From NCBI RefSeq assembly GCF_002162355.1, contig NZ_CP021434.1, forward strand, positions 2,642,501 through 2,706,500: a DNA stretch of 64,000 bases. Direction: 5' to 3'. The notes beneath the pieces are model-generated. The model saw nothing but the letters and a program-made list of their open reading frames with translations. It was not told the DNA's origin and made no database searches. How positions within the stretch are numbered: the stretch's first letter is position 1; every line of letters begins with the position of its first letter. A program made the translations under genes and the position numbers. Positions 22,280-31,887 of this stretch are shown here, in pieces. This stretch comes from Tumebacillus avium. GTDB lineage: Bacteria > Bacillota > Bacilli > Tumebacillales > Tumebacillaceae.

Positions 22280-22978
22280 CTATTTCGCATCCCAATCCAC
22301 ATCAACCGCATACGGAATCGGGTCTTTCACGCCCGCTTCCTTAAACCCGCGGATACGCAGCGTGCACGACTCGCACTCGCCGCAAGATGGGTCGGTGCCG
22401 AAGTAACAGGAGTGGCTCAAATGCAGCGGAGCGCCTAACTCAGTACCGAGTTTAACAATCCCCGCCTTGGACAGCATTTGCAGCGGGGTCTCGATCTTGA
22501 TCGGGTGCCCCGTCACGCCTGCCGCTGTGCCTTTGTTGATCACTTCCTGGAAGGCCGCAATAAAGTCGGCACGGCAGTCCGGGTAGCCGGAGTAGTCGAG
22601 TGCATTTACGCCGATATACATCGCTTCTGCACCGATCGCTTCCGAGTAGGACAAGGCGATCGAGAGGAAGATGATGTTTCTCGCCGGGACATATGTCACC
22701 GGAATATCCGTCTCTTCGCCTGTTCGATGCTTCGGAATCTCTTTATCCGCATCGGTCAAGGCCGAACCGCGAATCAGCCCTTTGAGGTCGGCGATAAAGT
22801 GGCGATCTGACACGCCGTAGAACTCGGCAACCTTCTTCGCCGACTCCAGCTCAATCGCCGCTTTCTGCCCGTAGTGGAACGACAACGGGTACAGCTCATA
22901 CCCGGCCGCCTTCGCCGCCGCCATGCAGGTGGTGGAGTCGAGGCCGCCGGAGAGGATGATGACCGCTTTTTTGCTCAT
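22280..22978 (-). CDS. queC: 7-cyano-7-deazaguanine synthase QueC
   Basis: QueC converts 7-carboxy-7-deazaguanine to preQ0 with ATP and ammonia, on the path to queuosine in tRNA. The 232-aa product starts at ATG 22976-22978 behind GAGGAG. The N-terminal PP-loop is AVIILSGGLDSTTCMAAA (about residues 5-22). The zinc-binding cysteines lie in the C-terminal SCYFGTDPSCGECESCTLR. It is the last gene of the minus-strand queD-queE-queC operon, four bases after queE. Confidence 0.96.
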   Translation of the reverse strand: MSKKAVIILSGGLDSTTCMAAAKAAGYELYPLSFHYGQKAAIELESAKKVAEFYGVSDRHFIADLKGLIRGSALTDADKEIPKHRTGEETDIPVTYVPARNIIFLSIALSYSEAIGAEAMYIGVNALDYSGYPDCRADFIAAFQEVINKGTAAGVTGHPIKIETPLQMLSKAGIVKLGTELGAPLHLSHSCYFGTDPSCGECESCTLRIRGFKEAGVKDPIPYAVDVDWDAK

Positions 22979-22982
22979 CGCA

Positions 22983-23639
22983 TTACACTCCTCGCTTGTC
23001 TGGGTCCCAGACGATCTTGTGCAGCTGCACTTGGAAGCGCGCATCGAGCTCGTCTTCCAGGATCCAGTTGACGAGATCCTCCAGCTCGATTTCGCGGAAT
23101 ACCGGGGAGAAGATCAGCTGGTAGCCGTCTTTCGGATGAATCCCCTGCTCGCGGATCAGCGCGGTGCACCACTCATAGTCTGCACGGCTGCCCACGACAA
23201 ATTTCACCTCGTCGCGCTCGGCCACGATGTGCTGCAGATTCGGCAGGTGCATCTTTTCACTCATCCCGGAGGACGGGACTTTCATATCGACGATAAAACG
23301 CTGCTTGGCATGCAGTTGGAACTTGGAGACGTCAATTGAGCCGTCCGTCTCAATCGACACTTCATAGCTTTCTTCAGCCAGCAGGTCCAGCAGGCGCTGC
23401 ATCTCGGCGCGGGGCTGGATCAGCGGTTCGCCGCCGGTCAGACAGACGCGCTTGCATTTCAAGGCGCGGATCTTGTCCATCACTTCGTCCGGGGTGATGA
23501 TGTCGCCTTCGAAGTAGGAATATTTCGTGTCGCAGTACGTGCAGCGCAGGTTGCAGCCGGTAAAGCGCACAAAGATCGTCGGCAGGCCTGCCGACGATGT
23601 TTCACCTTGAATGGAAAGGAACAGTTCATTCAGCCGCAT
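22983..23639 (-). CDS. queE: 7-carboxy-7-deazaguanine synthase QueE
   Basis: A radical-SAM enzyme that ring-contracts 6-carboxytetrahydropterin to 7-carboxy-7-deazaguanine. The product has 218 aa. The N-terminal LFLSIQGETSSAGLPTIFVR is typical of QueE, and the radical-SAM cluster is CNLRCTYC near residues 29-36 (C-x3-C-x2-C). The SAM-binding GGEP follows near 69-72. Its start overlaps the end of queD by 14 bases, which fits translational coupling. Confidence 0.96.
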   Translation of the reverse strand: MRLNELFLSIQGETSSAGLPTIFVRFTGCNLRCTYCDTKYSYFEGDIITPDEVMDKIRALKCKRVCLTGGEPLIQPRAEMQRLLDLLAEESYEVSIETDGSIDVSKFQLHAKQRFIVDMKVPSSGMSEKMHLPNLQHIVAERDEVKFVVGSRADYEWCTALIREQGIHPKDGYQLIFSPVFREIELEDLVNWILEDELDARFQVQLHKIVWDPDKRGV

Positions 23640-24045
23640 CGTAATCCTCCCGGGTCAGTTCCGCATATGCGGTCGGCGTTTCCCACAAGCGCAGGCGCAT
23701 CAGGCGGCACGGGGTGTCGTCGACAATCTTGCCCAAAAACGTGTCGATGATTTCGAAAAAGTGGAAGACCATGTTTTCGGCCGTCGTGTTGAACTCCATC
23801 AGGTCGTTCAGGAAACGGTGATCGTAAACGCCGATGATCTGCTCGTTGACGATCTTCTTGATGTCGCCAAAGTCGACGACGATGCCGCGATGGTCGGTGC
23901 GGCCTTTGATGGTGACTTCCAATTTATAAGTATGGCCGTGCAGGTTCGCGCACTTGCCAATATAATCATCCAAACGATGTGCCGAGTCGAACGTAAAGAT
24001 CTTAGTCACAGACACTTCTCGGTTGTGATAAGGTTGTTTCGTCAT
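23626..24045 (-). CDS. queD: 6-carboxy-5,6,7,8-tetrahydropterin synthase QueD
   Basis: QueD converts 7,8-dihydroneopterin triphosphate to 6-carboxytetrahydropterin, the first dedicated step to queuosine. The 139-aa product has the zinc ligands of the pterin synthase fold: FDSAHRLD near residue 22 and NLHGHTYKLEV near 34-44. The DHRFLN segment is also present. It is the first gene of queDEC. I saw no preQ1 riboswitch in the roughly 130 bases upstream. Confidence 0.95.
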   Translation of the reverse strand: MTKQPYHNREVSVTKIFTFDSAHRLDDYIGKCANLHGHTYKLEVTIKGRTDHRGIVVDFGDIKKIVNEQIIGVYDHRFLNDLMEFNTTAENMVFHFFEIIDTFLGKIVDDTPCRLMRLRLWETPTAYAELTREDYDAAE

Positions 24046-27980: not shown

Positions 27981-28697
27981 ATGAATCTTACGGAACGTTA
28001 CCGGCAGATCGAGTCGGTCACGAAGTATAGCAACTACTATCTCGGCCGCTGCTATACGTGGTTGTCGACACCGATTACCGAACTTGCGGCGCGCATGGGG
28101 ATGCACCCGAATGCCATGACTTTGATTTCGCTGGTGCTGGGCCTTGCCGCTTGCGGCCTGTTTCTGGTCGGCGACCGCACGTTCCTGGTGATCGGTGCCG
28201 TGGTTTTGTACCTGTCCTACGTGCTGGACTGGTGTGACGGCCAGCTCGCGCGCTTCACGGGCAAGATGAGCCCGTTTGGCGGCTGGCTGGACCAGATGTG
28301 CGACCGGATCAAAGAGTTTGCCTTCGTCTCAACGCTGGCGGTTGGCGCGTTCAAGCTGTACGGCGATGTGACGGTGTTTTACTGGGCGATGGGCTCCCTG
28401 TTTGTGCTGTTCCTGCTCGAGTACTACGGGCAGATGAACCGGGCGATCCCGGAATCCCAAGCTGCGCAGGAAACGGCTGCTGCGGTGGCTCCGGCCTCGC
28501 CGCAGATGGGCCGCCCGACCGATGGCCGCAAAAAGATCGTCATCGACTTCTCGATCGACGAGCAATACGCGGTCGTCTGCCTGCTGATCGTGCTGGCAGG
28601 CGCCAAAGGAACCTTGATCGGCGTCACGCTGATCGGGCTGTTGTTTGCTGTCTACAAACCGCTGCTAGCTTGGCTTCGCTATTTTAGAACGAATTGA
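27981..28697 (+). CDS. CDP-alcohol phosphatidyltransferase family membrane enzyme
   Basis: The family joins an alcohol to a CDP-activated group in the membrane. The 238-aa product has the full active-site motif D-x2-DG-x2-AR-x8-G-x3-D-x3-D (DWCDGQLARFTGKMSPFGGW, then LDQMCD; about residues 83-108). There are about five to six membrane segments and an unusual soluble insert near 160-190 (Ala/Pro-rich, then GRKKIVIDF). The start is ATG 27981, eight bases after GGAGG. It is the first gene of a cluster with a cytidylyltransferase-AEP transaminase fusion and another nucleotidyltransferase. I infer head-group transfer from CDP-aminoethylphosphonate or a similar activated amino alcohol. Confidence 0.85.
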   Translation: MNLTERYRQIESVTKYSNYYLGRCYTWLSTPITELAARMGMHPNAMTLISLVLGLAACGLFLVGDRTFLVIGAVVLYLSYVLDWCDGQLARFTGKMSPFGGWLDQMCDRIKEFAFVSTLAVGAFKLYGDVTVFYWAMGSLFVLFLLEYYGQMNRAIPESQAAQETAAAVAPASPQMGRPTDGRKKIVIDFSIDEQYAVVCLLIVLAGAKGTLIGVTLIGLLFAVYKPLLAWLRYFRTN

Positions 28698-28708
28698 GGG
28701 ATTCTGGC

Positions 28709-30538
28709 ATGAAAGCCGTCATCTTAGCTGCCGGAGCCGGTGAACGTCTGGCTCCGATTACACAAACGTTGCCGAAAGCGCTGTTGCCCATCGGTTCGGA
28801 AAGCATCCTTTCCCGTCAGATTCGCCAATTGGCGGAACACGGCGTGCAAGATGTCTATGTTGTCATCGGTTATGAAGGCGAAGCGATCCGCCAGCATCTG
28901 GCGGCGTCCAACCCGCCCTGCGCGGTGTACCTGATCGAGAACCCGGTTTACAAAACCACCTCGACCGCGTATTCCACACTGCTCGCCGAAGAATTTGTCA
29001 GCGGCGAGCCGTTCTATCTGCTCGACGGCGATGTCGTGGCCGACGGCTATGTATACGAAAAAATGGCCGCGCTCGACGGCAACGTTCTGCTCTATCAGGA
29101 AAAATCGATCTCTTCGCCGGAAGAGATGAAAGTGTCGCAGCAAGGCGATGTGGTCTACCTGAGCAAGACGATCGAAGACGAAGCGGCGCTCGGCGAGTTT
29201 GTTGGCCTGGCCCGCGTGTCCGGTGAGGCGAGCACGGCGTTTTTTGCTGCTCTGAAAAAGGCTGCGCAAGACGTGTACTACGAAGTGGCGTTGAATGAGA
29301 TCGCTTCCGAGTTCCCGTTTGCGCTGGAAACGCTGGCGGAAGGCTCGTGGATCGAGATCGACTTTGTCACCGACTACCTGCAGGCGGTGCGCATCTTTAC
29401 CGAGCAGCGCGACGTGGTCACCCCGCTGATCTCCGAGCAGGTGCTGCTCTGCCCGGGTCCGGTCATGGTCTCGAAAAAAGTAAAATCGGCGCTTCTGCAC
29501 GCGGACATCGGACACCGCGAAACGGAATTTATCGAGATCCTCACCCGTTGCCGCGCCAAGCTGAACCAGGCGTACGGCGTGACCGGCAAGGACTACACCA
29601 ACGTGATCATCACCGGCTCCGGCACCTCGGCGAACGAAGCGCTGCTCTCTTCCTACGGTCCGGGCAAAAAGCTGCTCATCCTCTCCAACGGCGAGTTCGG
29701 CAACCGCCTGATCGACCTGGCGCGCTGCCATGAGCTCGACTACACGGCGCTGGAGTTTGGCTGGGCGAACAAGATCGACCTCGGCCAAGTCGAAGAGATG
29801 GTCGCGACCGGCGCATACGACGCGCTGATGGTCGTGCATCACGAAACGTCTTGCGGCATGCTCAACCCGATCAACGAGATCGGCGCGATCATGAAAAAGC
29901 ACAACGTCGACTTCCTTGTCGATGCGGTCTCTTCGATCGGCGCGGAAGCTCTGTCGGTGGAAGCGGCGAACATCACCTTCTGCACCGCATCGGCGAACAA
30001 AGCTTTGGCCTCGCTGCCTGGCCTCGCGTTCGTCTGCGGCAAAAAGACGGCGTTCCAGGCGCTGAAAGGGCAGAAGGCGCGCACGCGCTACCTCGACCTG
30101 TACAAGCACTACGAGTACGAAGCGGTGTCCTTCCAGACCCCGAACACGCCGGCTGTATCCTTGTTCTACGCGCTGGAAGTGGCGCTCGATGAACTGCTGC
30201 AGGATACGGTGGCGGCACGGATGAAACACTACGGCTATCTGGCGAGCCTCGTGCGCAACCGCCTGAAGAAGCTCGGCCTGTCGTTTGTGATCGACGAAGC
30301 GGAGATGTCCCGCGTTTTGACCACCGTGTATTACCCGGAAGGCATCGACGTGGAAGCGTTCCACGACTGGGTGAAGCAACACAACTATGTCATCTACCGC
30401 GGCAAAGGCCCGTTCCTCGGCAAGGCGTTCCAGATTGCCAACATCGGCCATGTCCGCGAAGAGCATGTGCTGGCGTTCCTCGACATGATGGAGCGCGGCT
30501 TTAAAATGACAGCAACCACAGCCTCTGTAACCCAGTAA
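28709..30538 (+). CDS. Fusion of a PntC/LicC-like cytidylyltransferase and 2-aminoethylphosphonate-pyruvate transaminase
   Basis: A 609-aa, two-domain protein from ATG 28709 after GAGGG. Residues 1-235 are a nucleotidyltransferase with AAGAGERLAPITQTLPKALL. Residues 243-600 are a class V PLP aminotransferase of PhnW type: CPGPVMVSKKV, IGHRETEF, TGSGTSANEALLSS, VDAVSSIGAE, and Schiff-base Lys near K431 in ASANKALASLPGLAFV. Such fusions are known in phosphonate head-group pathways: the transaminase makes 2-aminoethylphosphonate from phosphonoacetaldehyde and the other domain makes CMP-AEP. PEP mutase and phosphonopyruvate decarboxylase are not in the window, so the route is inferred. Confidence 0.88.
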   Translation: MKAVILAAGAGERLAPITQTLPKALLPIGSESILSRQIRQLAEHGVQDVYVVIGYEGEAIRQHLAASNPPCAVYLIENPVYKTTSTAYSTLLAEEFVSGEPFYLLDGDVVADGYVYEKMAALDGNVLLYQEKSISSPEEMKVSQQGDVVYLSKTIEDEAALGEFVGLARVSGEASTAFFAALKKAAQDVYYEVALNEIASEFPFALETLAEGSWIEIDFVTDYLQAVRIFTEQRDVVTPLISEQVLLCPGPVMVSKKVKSALLHADIGHRETEFIEILTRCRAKLNQAYGVTGKDYTNVIITGSGTSANEALLSSYGPGKKLLILSNGEFGNRLIDLARCHELDYTALEFGWANKIDLGQVEEMVATGAYDALMVVHHETSCGMLNPINEIGAIMKKHNVDFLVDAVSSIGAEALSVEAANITFCTASANKALASLPGLAFVCGKKTAFQALKGQKARTRYLDLYKHYEYEAVSFQTPNTPAVSLFYALEVALDELLQDTVAARMKHYGYLASLVRNRLKKLGLSFVIDEAEMSRVLTTVYYPEGIDVEAFHDWVKQHNYVIYRGKGPFLGKAFQIANIGHVREEHVLAFLDMMERGFKMTATTASVTQ

Positions 30539-30550
30539 GGAGTGTAGAAG

Positions 30551-31273
30551 ATGAGATTGGTAATTCTTGTAGCAGGTGTCGGGTCGCGTTTGCGCCCGCT
30601 GACCGATGATCGTCCGAAATGCCTCGTGGAGATCGGCGGACAGACGATCCTCGACCGTTTTCTTCAACAGGCGGTGGAAACAAACGCCTTCCAAGAGGTG
30701 GTGCTCATCACCGGCTATCGTCAGCCGCAGATTGAAGCTGCCGTAAACGAGTGGCAAAAGACGCATGATCTGCCGGTGCGTCTCGCGCACAACGAGCGCT
30801 ACGATGAGACGAACAACGGCTACAGCTTGCTGTGCGCCAAAGACTACCTGTTGGACGGCTTTGTGCTGACCGACGGCGACCTGCTGCTCGAAGACGGCAT
30901 CCTGCGCCGCGTGGCCGGCTCGGCCGAATCGCACCTCGCAGTCGACATGCAGATGAAGCTGGACGAAGAGGCGATGAAGTTTGTGCTCGACGAGAACGGC
31001 TACGTCACCGAATTGTCCAAGGAGATCTCGGTGGAGCGCGGACTTGGCGAGTCGATCGGCCTGTGCAAGATCAACGCGGAAGACGCGCCGGGTGTGATCG
31101 GCCATCTCGCCAAGCTGGTTGAACAGGGCGAGGAAAACGAATACTATGAACGTGCTTTCCAAGAGCTGATCCGCGAAAGCTGGAAATTGAAAGTCGTCGA
31201 TGTCGGCGACTTGCGCTGGGTCGAAGTGGACGACAACAACGACATGGCGCGCGCGGAGCAGATTTTCGGATAA
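30551..31273 (+). CDS. Sugar/choline-type nucleotidyltransferase
   Basis: A 240-aa protein, ATG 30551 after AAGGAG. The NTP-binding signature is VAGVGSRLRPLTDDRPKCLV near residues 7-26. The substrate-side metal site is in LTDGDLLLEDG near 99-109, and a VEVDDNNDMARAE end matches LicC-like and MobA-like-fold enzymes. It follows the fusion gene by 12 bases and probably activates a second head group or sugar in the same pathway. The substrate cannot be read from the sequence. Confidence 0.82.
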   Translation: MRLVILVAGVGSRLRPLTDDRPKCLVEIGGQTILDRFLQQAVETNAFQEVVLITGYRQPQIEAAVNEWQKTHDLPVRLAHNERYDETNNGYSLLCAKDYLLDGFVLTDGDLLLEDGILRRVAGSAESHLAVDMQMKLDEEAMKFVLDENGYVTELSKEISVERGLGESIGLCKINAEDAPGVIGHLAKLVEQGEENEYYERAFQELIRESWKLKVVDVGDLRWVEVDDNNDMARAEQIFG

Positions 31274-31300
31274 AATCTCCGCAAAGTGAGGGGCTCGTGC

Positions 31301-31855
31301 ATGGGACGGTATTTTCTCGGACTGGAAGTGCCTAAGGAAACGTGCGGCGCGATGCTGCTGAAGGTGGAGGAGCGGTTAGAGCCGAGCCTCGACGTGAAAA
31401 AGTGGTATCGCCCGGAGCAGTTTCACATCACGACTCATTTTCTCGGCGATCTGGACGCAGGGCAGGTGCAGCGGGTGATCGAGCTGGTCACACCGCACAC
31501 GGCCGTGCAGCAGCCGTTTCGCCTGCGCATCGACCATGCGGGCTGGTTCCCGCGCGCGAAGGTCGTCTGGTGCGGCGTCACCGGCGACATAGGGCCGCTG
31601 CAAGACTTGTATGCGGTGCTGGCAGAGCCTTTGAACACGCTGGGCGCCGGGCGGTTTGCCCACGACCAGTTTCGCCCGCACATCACGCTGGGCCGCCTGC
31701 GCTCCGCCGATCCGAAATGGCAGCCGCCTCAGGTGGCCGACCTGCTGGAAGGTGCGGAGTGGGAAGTTAGCGCGCTGCACCTGTACGAATCGGTGTCGGC
31801 CGGTGCCCAAGGCCCGGATTATCCGGCGCGGCATACGTTTCAGTTTCAAGTATAA
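31301..31855 (+). CDS. thpR: RNA 2',3'-cyclic phosphodiesterase ThpR (2H phosphoesterase)
   Basis: A 184-aa 2H-fold protein with both H-x-T/S motifs: HITTHFLGDL near residue 46 and HITLGRLR near 126. The N-terminus GRYFLGLEVP is typical of LigT/ThpR proteins. The family opens 2',3'-cyclic phosphates on RNA. ATG 31301 lies seven bases after TGAGGGG. It is the last gene before a strong convergent terminator, so it may be cotranscribed with the head-group genes without sharing their function. Confidence 0.88.
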   Translation: MGRYFLGLEVPKETCGAMLLKVEERLEPSLDVKKWYRPEQFHITTHFLGDLDAGQVQRVIELVTPHTAVQQPFRLRIDHAGWFPRAKVVWCGVTGDIGPLQDLYAVLAEPLNTLGAGRFAHDQFRPHITLGRLRSADPKWQPPQVADLLEGAEWEVSALHLYESVSAGAQGPDYPARHTFQFQV

Positions 31856-31856
31856 A

Positions 31857-31887
31857 AAAGGCTGGGAGCTTAGCTCCCAGCCTTTTT
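31857..31887. terminator. Bidirectional terminator between thpR and the metallo-hydrolase gene
   Basis: AAAGGCTGGGAGCT, one-base loop T, AGCTCCCAGCCTTTTT. The minus-strand gene's stop codon lies inside the stem. Confidence 0.87.

Follow-up and report, generated by a model that had tools for sequence, protein, structure and literature searches.

A cytidylyltransferase–transaminase fusion cassette of Tumebacillus avium may serve a head group other than a phosphonate

What does a membrane CDP-alcohol phosphotransferase do beside a protein in which a cytidylyltransferase is fused to a transaminase resembling those for 2-aminoethylphosphonate (AEP)? The question is raised by a three-gene cassette at positions 27981–31273 of the window, our name for the whole 64,000-nucleotide stretch of Tumebacillus avium DNA analysed here (contig NZ_CP021434.1, 2642501–2706500; positions are those of the window unless given for the genome). 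A first-pass annotation read the cassette as a source of a phosphonolipid or phosphono-modified polymer, saw neither pepM, for phosphoenolpyruvate (PEP) mutase, nor ppd, for phosphonopyruvate decarboxylase, in the window, and offered three ways out: the two genes lie elsewhere, the cell imports AEP, or the fusion takes other amino alcohols as substrates. That interpretation is partly supported, and the relatives and active site of the fusion favour the third option. The substrate is quite probably not PepM-derived AEP. We put at slightly below even the chance that the cassette builds a non-phosphonate amino-alcohol head group, in which serinol phosphate derived from dihydroxyacetone phosphate (DHAP) would be activated with cytidine triphosphate (CTP) and then joined to a lipid or polymer.

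The three genes lie on the plus strand, separated by gaps of 11 and 12 bases, and each has a ribosome-binding site at its start (ATG 27981, ATG 28709 and ATG 30551). The first encodes the CDP-alcohol phosphotransferase (27981–28697), a protein of about 238 amino acids with about five transmembrane-like segments (PF01066; CDP-OH_P_transf, E = 3.5e-13). The second is the fusion gene (28709–30538; 609 amino acids from ATG 28709), which joins a cytidylyltransferase domain (28709–29401; PF00483/PF12804; NTP_transferase, E = 1.9e-13) to a class V transaminase domain (29435–30493; PF00266; Aminotran_5, E = 3.9e-23). The list of open reading frames also offers an upstream TTG at 28694 as the start of the fusion, and residue numbers below count from that TTG. 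The third gene encodes a second cytidylyltransferase, NT2 (30551–31273), which is LicC/IPCT-like and has its motifs intact (NTP_transf_3, E = 4.8e-10). Reading frames, ribosome-binding sites, Pfam matches and short gaps thus bear out the earlier statement that the three genes are adjacent and co-directional.

The cassette is not peculiar to this strain. It occurs in nine of the 14 genomes of the order, comprising all seven of the family and members of two further families, and its gene order is kept in all nine, down to 54–59% protein identity, so the arrangement is not due to chance. The motif DxxDGxxAR(8)GxxxDxxxD of the CDP-alcohol transferase, an instance of the superfamily motif DxxDGxxAR(8-9)GxxxDxxxD, is intact in each of the nine, as it is in a homologue from Sulfitobacter discussed below. 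NT2 motifs are likewise intact in all eight cassette copies looked at.

Is the fusion a phosphonate enzyme? Over its whole length its best solved relative is the fusion of PntC and an AEP transaminase (PntC-AEPT) from Treponema denticola, Tde1415 (6PD1/6PD2; PMC6697681), in which a class V transaminase likewise follows the cytidylyltransferase. Structure 6PD1 aligns with the window fusion across residues 7–596 (E = 4.1e-72), and the two share the domain make-up of phosphonyl-tailoring PntC-AEPT fusions. Their genomic company differs. Genuine PntC-AEPT fusions elsewhere in Bacillota, 30–32% identical to the window protein, are preceded immediately by pepM and ppd in five of five cases, whereas neither gene is linked to any of the nine cassettes (Fisher p = 0.0005, for genomes that are not independent of one another). 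The neighbours of the window fusion are instead the CDP-alcohol transferase and a second cytidylyltransferase.

Absence of pepM and ppd extends beyond the neighbourhood. Profile searches of the genomes found neither in six of the nine cassette genomes; the other three, all of the window's genus, have a pepM above cut-off and a ppd-like pair, both unlinked to the cassette. The PepM search was sensitive enough for this purpose, because it returned above-cut-off genes in eight of the 19 genomes and picked up weak relatives scoring as low as 51 bits.

The transaminase domain itself argues against AEP. In an alignment of 35 transaminases, the lysine that binds pyridoxal phosphate (Lys436) and the accompanying aspartate (Asp410) are kept in every row, and both are common to the window domain and the nearest curated family, PhnW/AepZ (1M32; TIGR03301). 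Within the FRI.NIG motif, the arginine gives way to glutamine in 12 of 12 members of a group that we call Q-type, to which the window domain belongs (Gln580, codon 30431–30433), and is retained in all 23 others. We take this arginine to be Arg340 of PhnW, a substrate-binding residue, although counting along the printed 1M32 alignment places it at 339; a literature search yielded no PhnW paper that mentions Arg340. Relative to PhnW/AepZ, five positions of the active region are altered in all Q-type members, and N314, E334, H346 and N484 are exclusive to Q-type rows. The 23 arginine-bearing controls are a non-random set made up of Treponema-type fusions, two rows from the PDB, a pepM-linked AEPT from the same order, five paralogues from within the genomes and selected plasmid hits. 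Among these controls are AEPTs that lie beside pepM, phnX and phnA/phnY.

Profile scores and phylogeny draw the same line. All nine AEPTs tested from phosphonate contexts pass the TIGR03301 cut-off of 360.8 bits (368.8–506.2 bits), whereas all four Q-type proteins scored fall below it (284.6–317.2 bits), the window protein reaching 308.3 bits. The earlier label 'AEP transaminase' therefore names the nearest family correctly but claims a membership that the score denies. Q-type rows form a single clade (support 100/99) apart from all AEPTs, and a clade uniting them with the fused Treponema-type transaminases is rejected (approximately unbiased test, p-AU = 3.6e-59). The idea that both kinds of fusion go back to one event was considered, and this result rejects it for the transaminase domain, which does not share its immediate descent with that of Tde1415. 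The sequence named Fvincentii was omitted from the transaminase trees, having formed a very long branch in an earlier tree, and was kept in the 35-row alignment. A structure prediction for the fusion made from three sequences had a mean predicted local distance difference test score of 46 and was not used.

The fused cytidylyltransferase domain tells a less divided story. As described in PMC6697681, the catalytic residues of PntC are R15, K25 and K153, its amine-binding residues are E104 and E196, and LicC also has aspartate at the E104 position. In all nine cassettes, the window's included, the equivalents of R15, K25, K153 and E196 are kept and E104 is aspartate, so the domain looks active. 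Because the link to pepM and ppd, the descent of the transaminase, the arginine and the profile score all fail, the window fusion should not be filed as a PntC-AEPT on this sequence evidence.

Could the substrate still be AEP, made from precursors supplied by distant genes? The T. avium genome is a single contig of 5.25 Mb, and whole-genome searches placed PepM-family matches at 0.59, 3.68 and 4.21 Mb and Ppd-family matches at 1.86 and 4.23 Mb, none of them within the window, as the first-pass annotation had it. Matches to PF13714 were set aside as evidence of pepM by themselves, two of the three PepM-family loci not being PEP mutases by TIGR02320. The remaining one (genome positions 3676292–3677101), about 1.0 Mb from the window, scores 319.8 bits against the curated cut-off of 319.55 and carries the EDKxxxxxNS motif given in PMC6697681. 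About 1.5 Mb from the window, two adjacent genes (genome positions 4234606–4235605) match the two halves of phosphonopyruvate decarboxylase, but they match the two subunits of sulfopyruvate decarboxylase about equally, and all scores lie below both cut-offs.

It is conceivable, then, that the fusion makes AEP from phosphonoacetaldehyde supplied by the distant pepM and split ppd, or receives AEP by import, and converts it to the cytidine monophosphate conjugate CMP-AEP for a phosphonolipid or polymer. Full-length similarity to Tde1415, the retention of most PntC active residues and the presence of both types of locus in the genome speak for this. We nevertheless consider it unlikely. That pepM and ppd lie elsewhere is true of T. 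avium yet fails to explain the cassette, because six of nine cassette genomes have neither; the pepM barely reaches its cut-off, the ppd-like pair is ambiguous, and the AEPT arginine is lost throughout the Q-type group. Import of AEP is conceivable, but it would leave the transaminase superfluous, and the domain lacks the arginine present in every AEP transaminase checked. The phosphonolipid or phosphono-polymer of the earlier headline is unsupported by the comparative evidence from relatives and active site, and only chemistry could exclude it.

Both distant loci have surroundings of their own. Directly downstream of the PEP mutase lies a gene resembling deoxythymidine monophosphate (dTMP) kinase, and divergent from it lie an uncharacterised nucleotidyltransferase (PF14907) and a major facilitator superfamily gene, an arrangement shared by the three genomes of the genus (L005:8578-13725, 3.68 Mb; L102, L103). 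One genome (G005) has a second pepM, 52% identical, outside such neighbours (L101:7345-8283). The ppd-like pair consists of two overlapping genes followed by an IPPK/FomA-like kinase that scores above the cut-off for isopentenyl phosphate kinase (IPPK); dTMP-kinase-like and hydroxyisobutyrate-dehydrogenase-like genes complete the locus, whose order is also kept in three of three genomes (L013:6058-12062, 4.23 Mb; L104, L105). Perhaps this locus encodes a pathway of its own, for a phosphonate or a sulfonate, that includes kinase steps. At genome positions 594270–594979 (L001), a gene of the PEP_mutase family that is not PepM is split between two frames, which may reflect a frameshift or an error in sequencing.

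If not AEP, what does the Q-type transaminase aminate? Scans across the class and phylum, in which three candidates per genome were scored, and searches of plasmids brought up Q-type homologues outside the cassette. Sulfitobacter sp. SK012 has, on a plasmid, a Q-type transaminase that is not fused and stands first in an operon, ahead of genes for a CDP-alcohol transferase and a cytidylyltransferase; this transaminase is 41.9% identical to the window domain and 31% identical to the Treponema and Salmonella enzymes. Annotation shows neither pepM nor ppd within 15 kb of the operon, although the chromosome of that strain was not searched for pepM. In a genome from the phylum scan (G689), a lone Q-type transaminase sits between a glycerol kinase, a true one at 786 bits against a cut-off of 498, and a glutamate dehydrogenase, at a locus that also carries Ugp-like permeases and a DeoR-type regulator. 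These neighbours fit a glutamate-dependent interconversion of serinol phosphate and DHAP. Such a transamination has precedent: Cj1437 (PMC11800397, PMC12096443) and the N-terminus of RtxA (PMC3222319) are DHAP transaminases that form serinol phosphate and use glutamate as amino donor. We liken them to the window domain by the proposed reaction, not by sequence.

Other searches returned no further cassette. Searching plasmids with the CDP-alcohol transferase alone gave 22 records, and the four neighbourhoods inspected held none beyond that of Sulfitobacter; no viral contig searched had a match, and no phage record searched covered 80% of the query. In another genome, G094, a lone Q-type transaminase (57–66% identity; L075:9671-10839) is spread over two overlapping frames, lacks a surrounding cassette and is perhaps a decaying remnant. 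It was dropped as a tenth fusion genome, its neighbourhood containing no cytidylyltransferase or CDP-alcohol transferase, and was excluded from the cassette count but retained in the transaminase alignment. G094 has no pepM and no Ppd match above 45.3 bits.

We propose that the Q-type transaminase would aminate a small phosphorylated carbonyl compound, most likely DHAP, to give serinol phosphate. The fused cytidylyltransferase could then combine serinol phosphate with CTP to form CDP-serinol, from which the membrane CDP-alcohol phosphotransferase would move the aminoalkyl phosphate onto a lipid or polymer acceptor. NT2 might supply a second CDP-alcohol, or partner the transferase as in the IPCT/DIPPS pair; the presence of two cytidylyltransferases suggests either that two alcohols are activated or that the enzymes share the work in a way that sequence does not reveal. 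We infer the enzyme activity, the three-carbon substrate, the use of CTP, the acceptor and the order of steps. Serinol phosphate in particular is a tentative choice, with odds clearly shorter on its being wrong than right.

Several observations weigh against this proposal. The closest full-length solved relative of the fusion is an AEP enzyme, and among curated families those nearest to it are AEP transaminases. Most PntC residues persist in the cytidylyltransferase domain, and its tree does not separate it from PntC domains (p-AU = 0.385). The window's own genome does carry a pepM. At only 38% identity, the G689 homologue may have a different substrate; the link to DHAP comes from that one locus of one genome plus analogy.

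A rather more doubtful alternative is that NT2 and the CDP-alcohol transferase act on a polyol phosphate, for instance that of inositol or glycerol, in the manner of IPCT-DIPPS (4MND; NF041135), with the transaminase of the fusion as a side branch or catalyst of another reaction. IPCT-DIPPS pairs a cytidylyltransferase and a CDP-alcohol transferase that belong to the families of the window pair, although in the window the genes are separate and the transaminase is extra. Each half of this Thermococcales model finds its counterpart in the window, NT2 at 71.9 bits and the transferase at 55, far under its cut-off of 580, a weak test because the model was built for a fused protein; the Sulfitobacter pair matches likewise (76.5 and 37.9 bits). 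On a plasmid of Streptomyces sp. BHT-5-2, a CDP-alcohol transferase, a cytidylyltransferase, a glycerol-1-phosphate-dehydrogenase-like gene and a second CDP-alcohol transferase stand in a row (L085:7656-11896). This row is a possible CDP-glycerol polymer cluster, and would offer a parallel in which DHAP is reduced rather than aminated. A polyol route leaves little place for the fusion, which is kept in all nine cassettes, or for the transaminase of the Sulfitobacter operon.

Least probable is a Kennedy-type route from glycolaldehyde phosphate through phosphoethanolamine and CDP-ethanolamine to diacylglycerol, giving phosphatidylethanolamine or its methyl derivative: the enzyme kinds are those of the CDP-ethanolamine route, and PMC11123200 and PMC8502169 report phosphatidylmethylethanolamine from Effusibacillus and from the type strain of Tumebacillus, but all nine cassette genomes encode phosphatidylserine decarboxylase, so phosphatidylethanolamine has its normal route and the product is arguably not simply this lipid, and the glycerol kinase beside the G689 homologue points to a three-carbon polyol.

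Around the cassette the window holds other genes. Twelve bases downstream of NT2 begins a gene for a LigT-type RNA 2',3'-cyclic phosphodiesterase (31286–31855, plus strand; TIGR02258 above cut-off), followed by a terminator-like hairpin of 15 pairs (31855–31887, plus strand). The phosphodiesterase gene adjoins the cassette throughout the family (seven genomes) but does not do so in the two further families; it is probably co-transcribed with the cassette, and a role within it is unlikely. On the minus strand at 22280–24045, QueC (by Pfam) and open reading frames that look QueE- and QueD-like by eye make up an ordinary queuosine precursor cluster.

At its broadest, the proposal is that an AEPT-related transaminase subfamily with a remade pocket feeds a CDP-serinol pathway, placing a serinol-phosphate head group such as phosphatidylserinol in Tumebacillaceae and their relatives and also, with the genes unfused, in an alphaproteobacterium from the sea; in this full form we regard it as speculative and rather unlikely to hold. 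Word searches of the open-licence literature gave no occurrence of CDP-serinol or phosphatidylserinol among the matches listed, and no paper that brings CDP-alcohol phosphatidyltransferase, cytidylyltransferase and 2-aminoethylphosphonate together. The five-residue signature separates the two kinds of transaminase. If the proposal is true, annotation pipelines would misread such cassettes as phosphonate metabolism; genomes annotated there with 'AEP transaminase' and 'phosphocholine cytidylyltransferase' would make no phosphonates by these genes, and surveys counting them would be inflated. The cassette may instead belong to an undescribed phospholipid or polymer head group.

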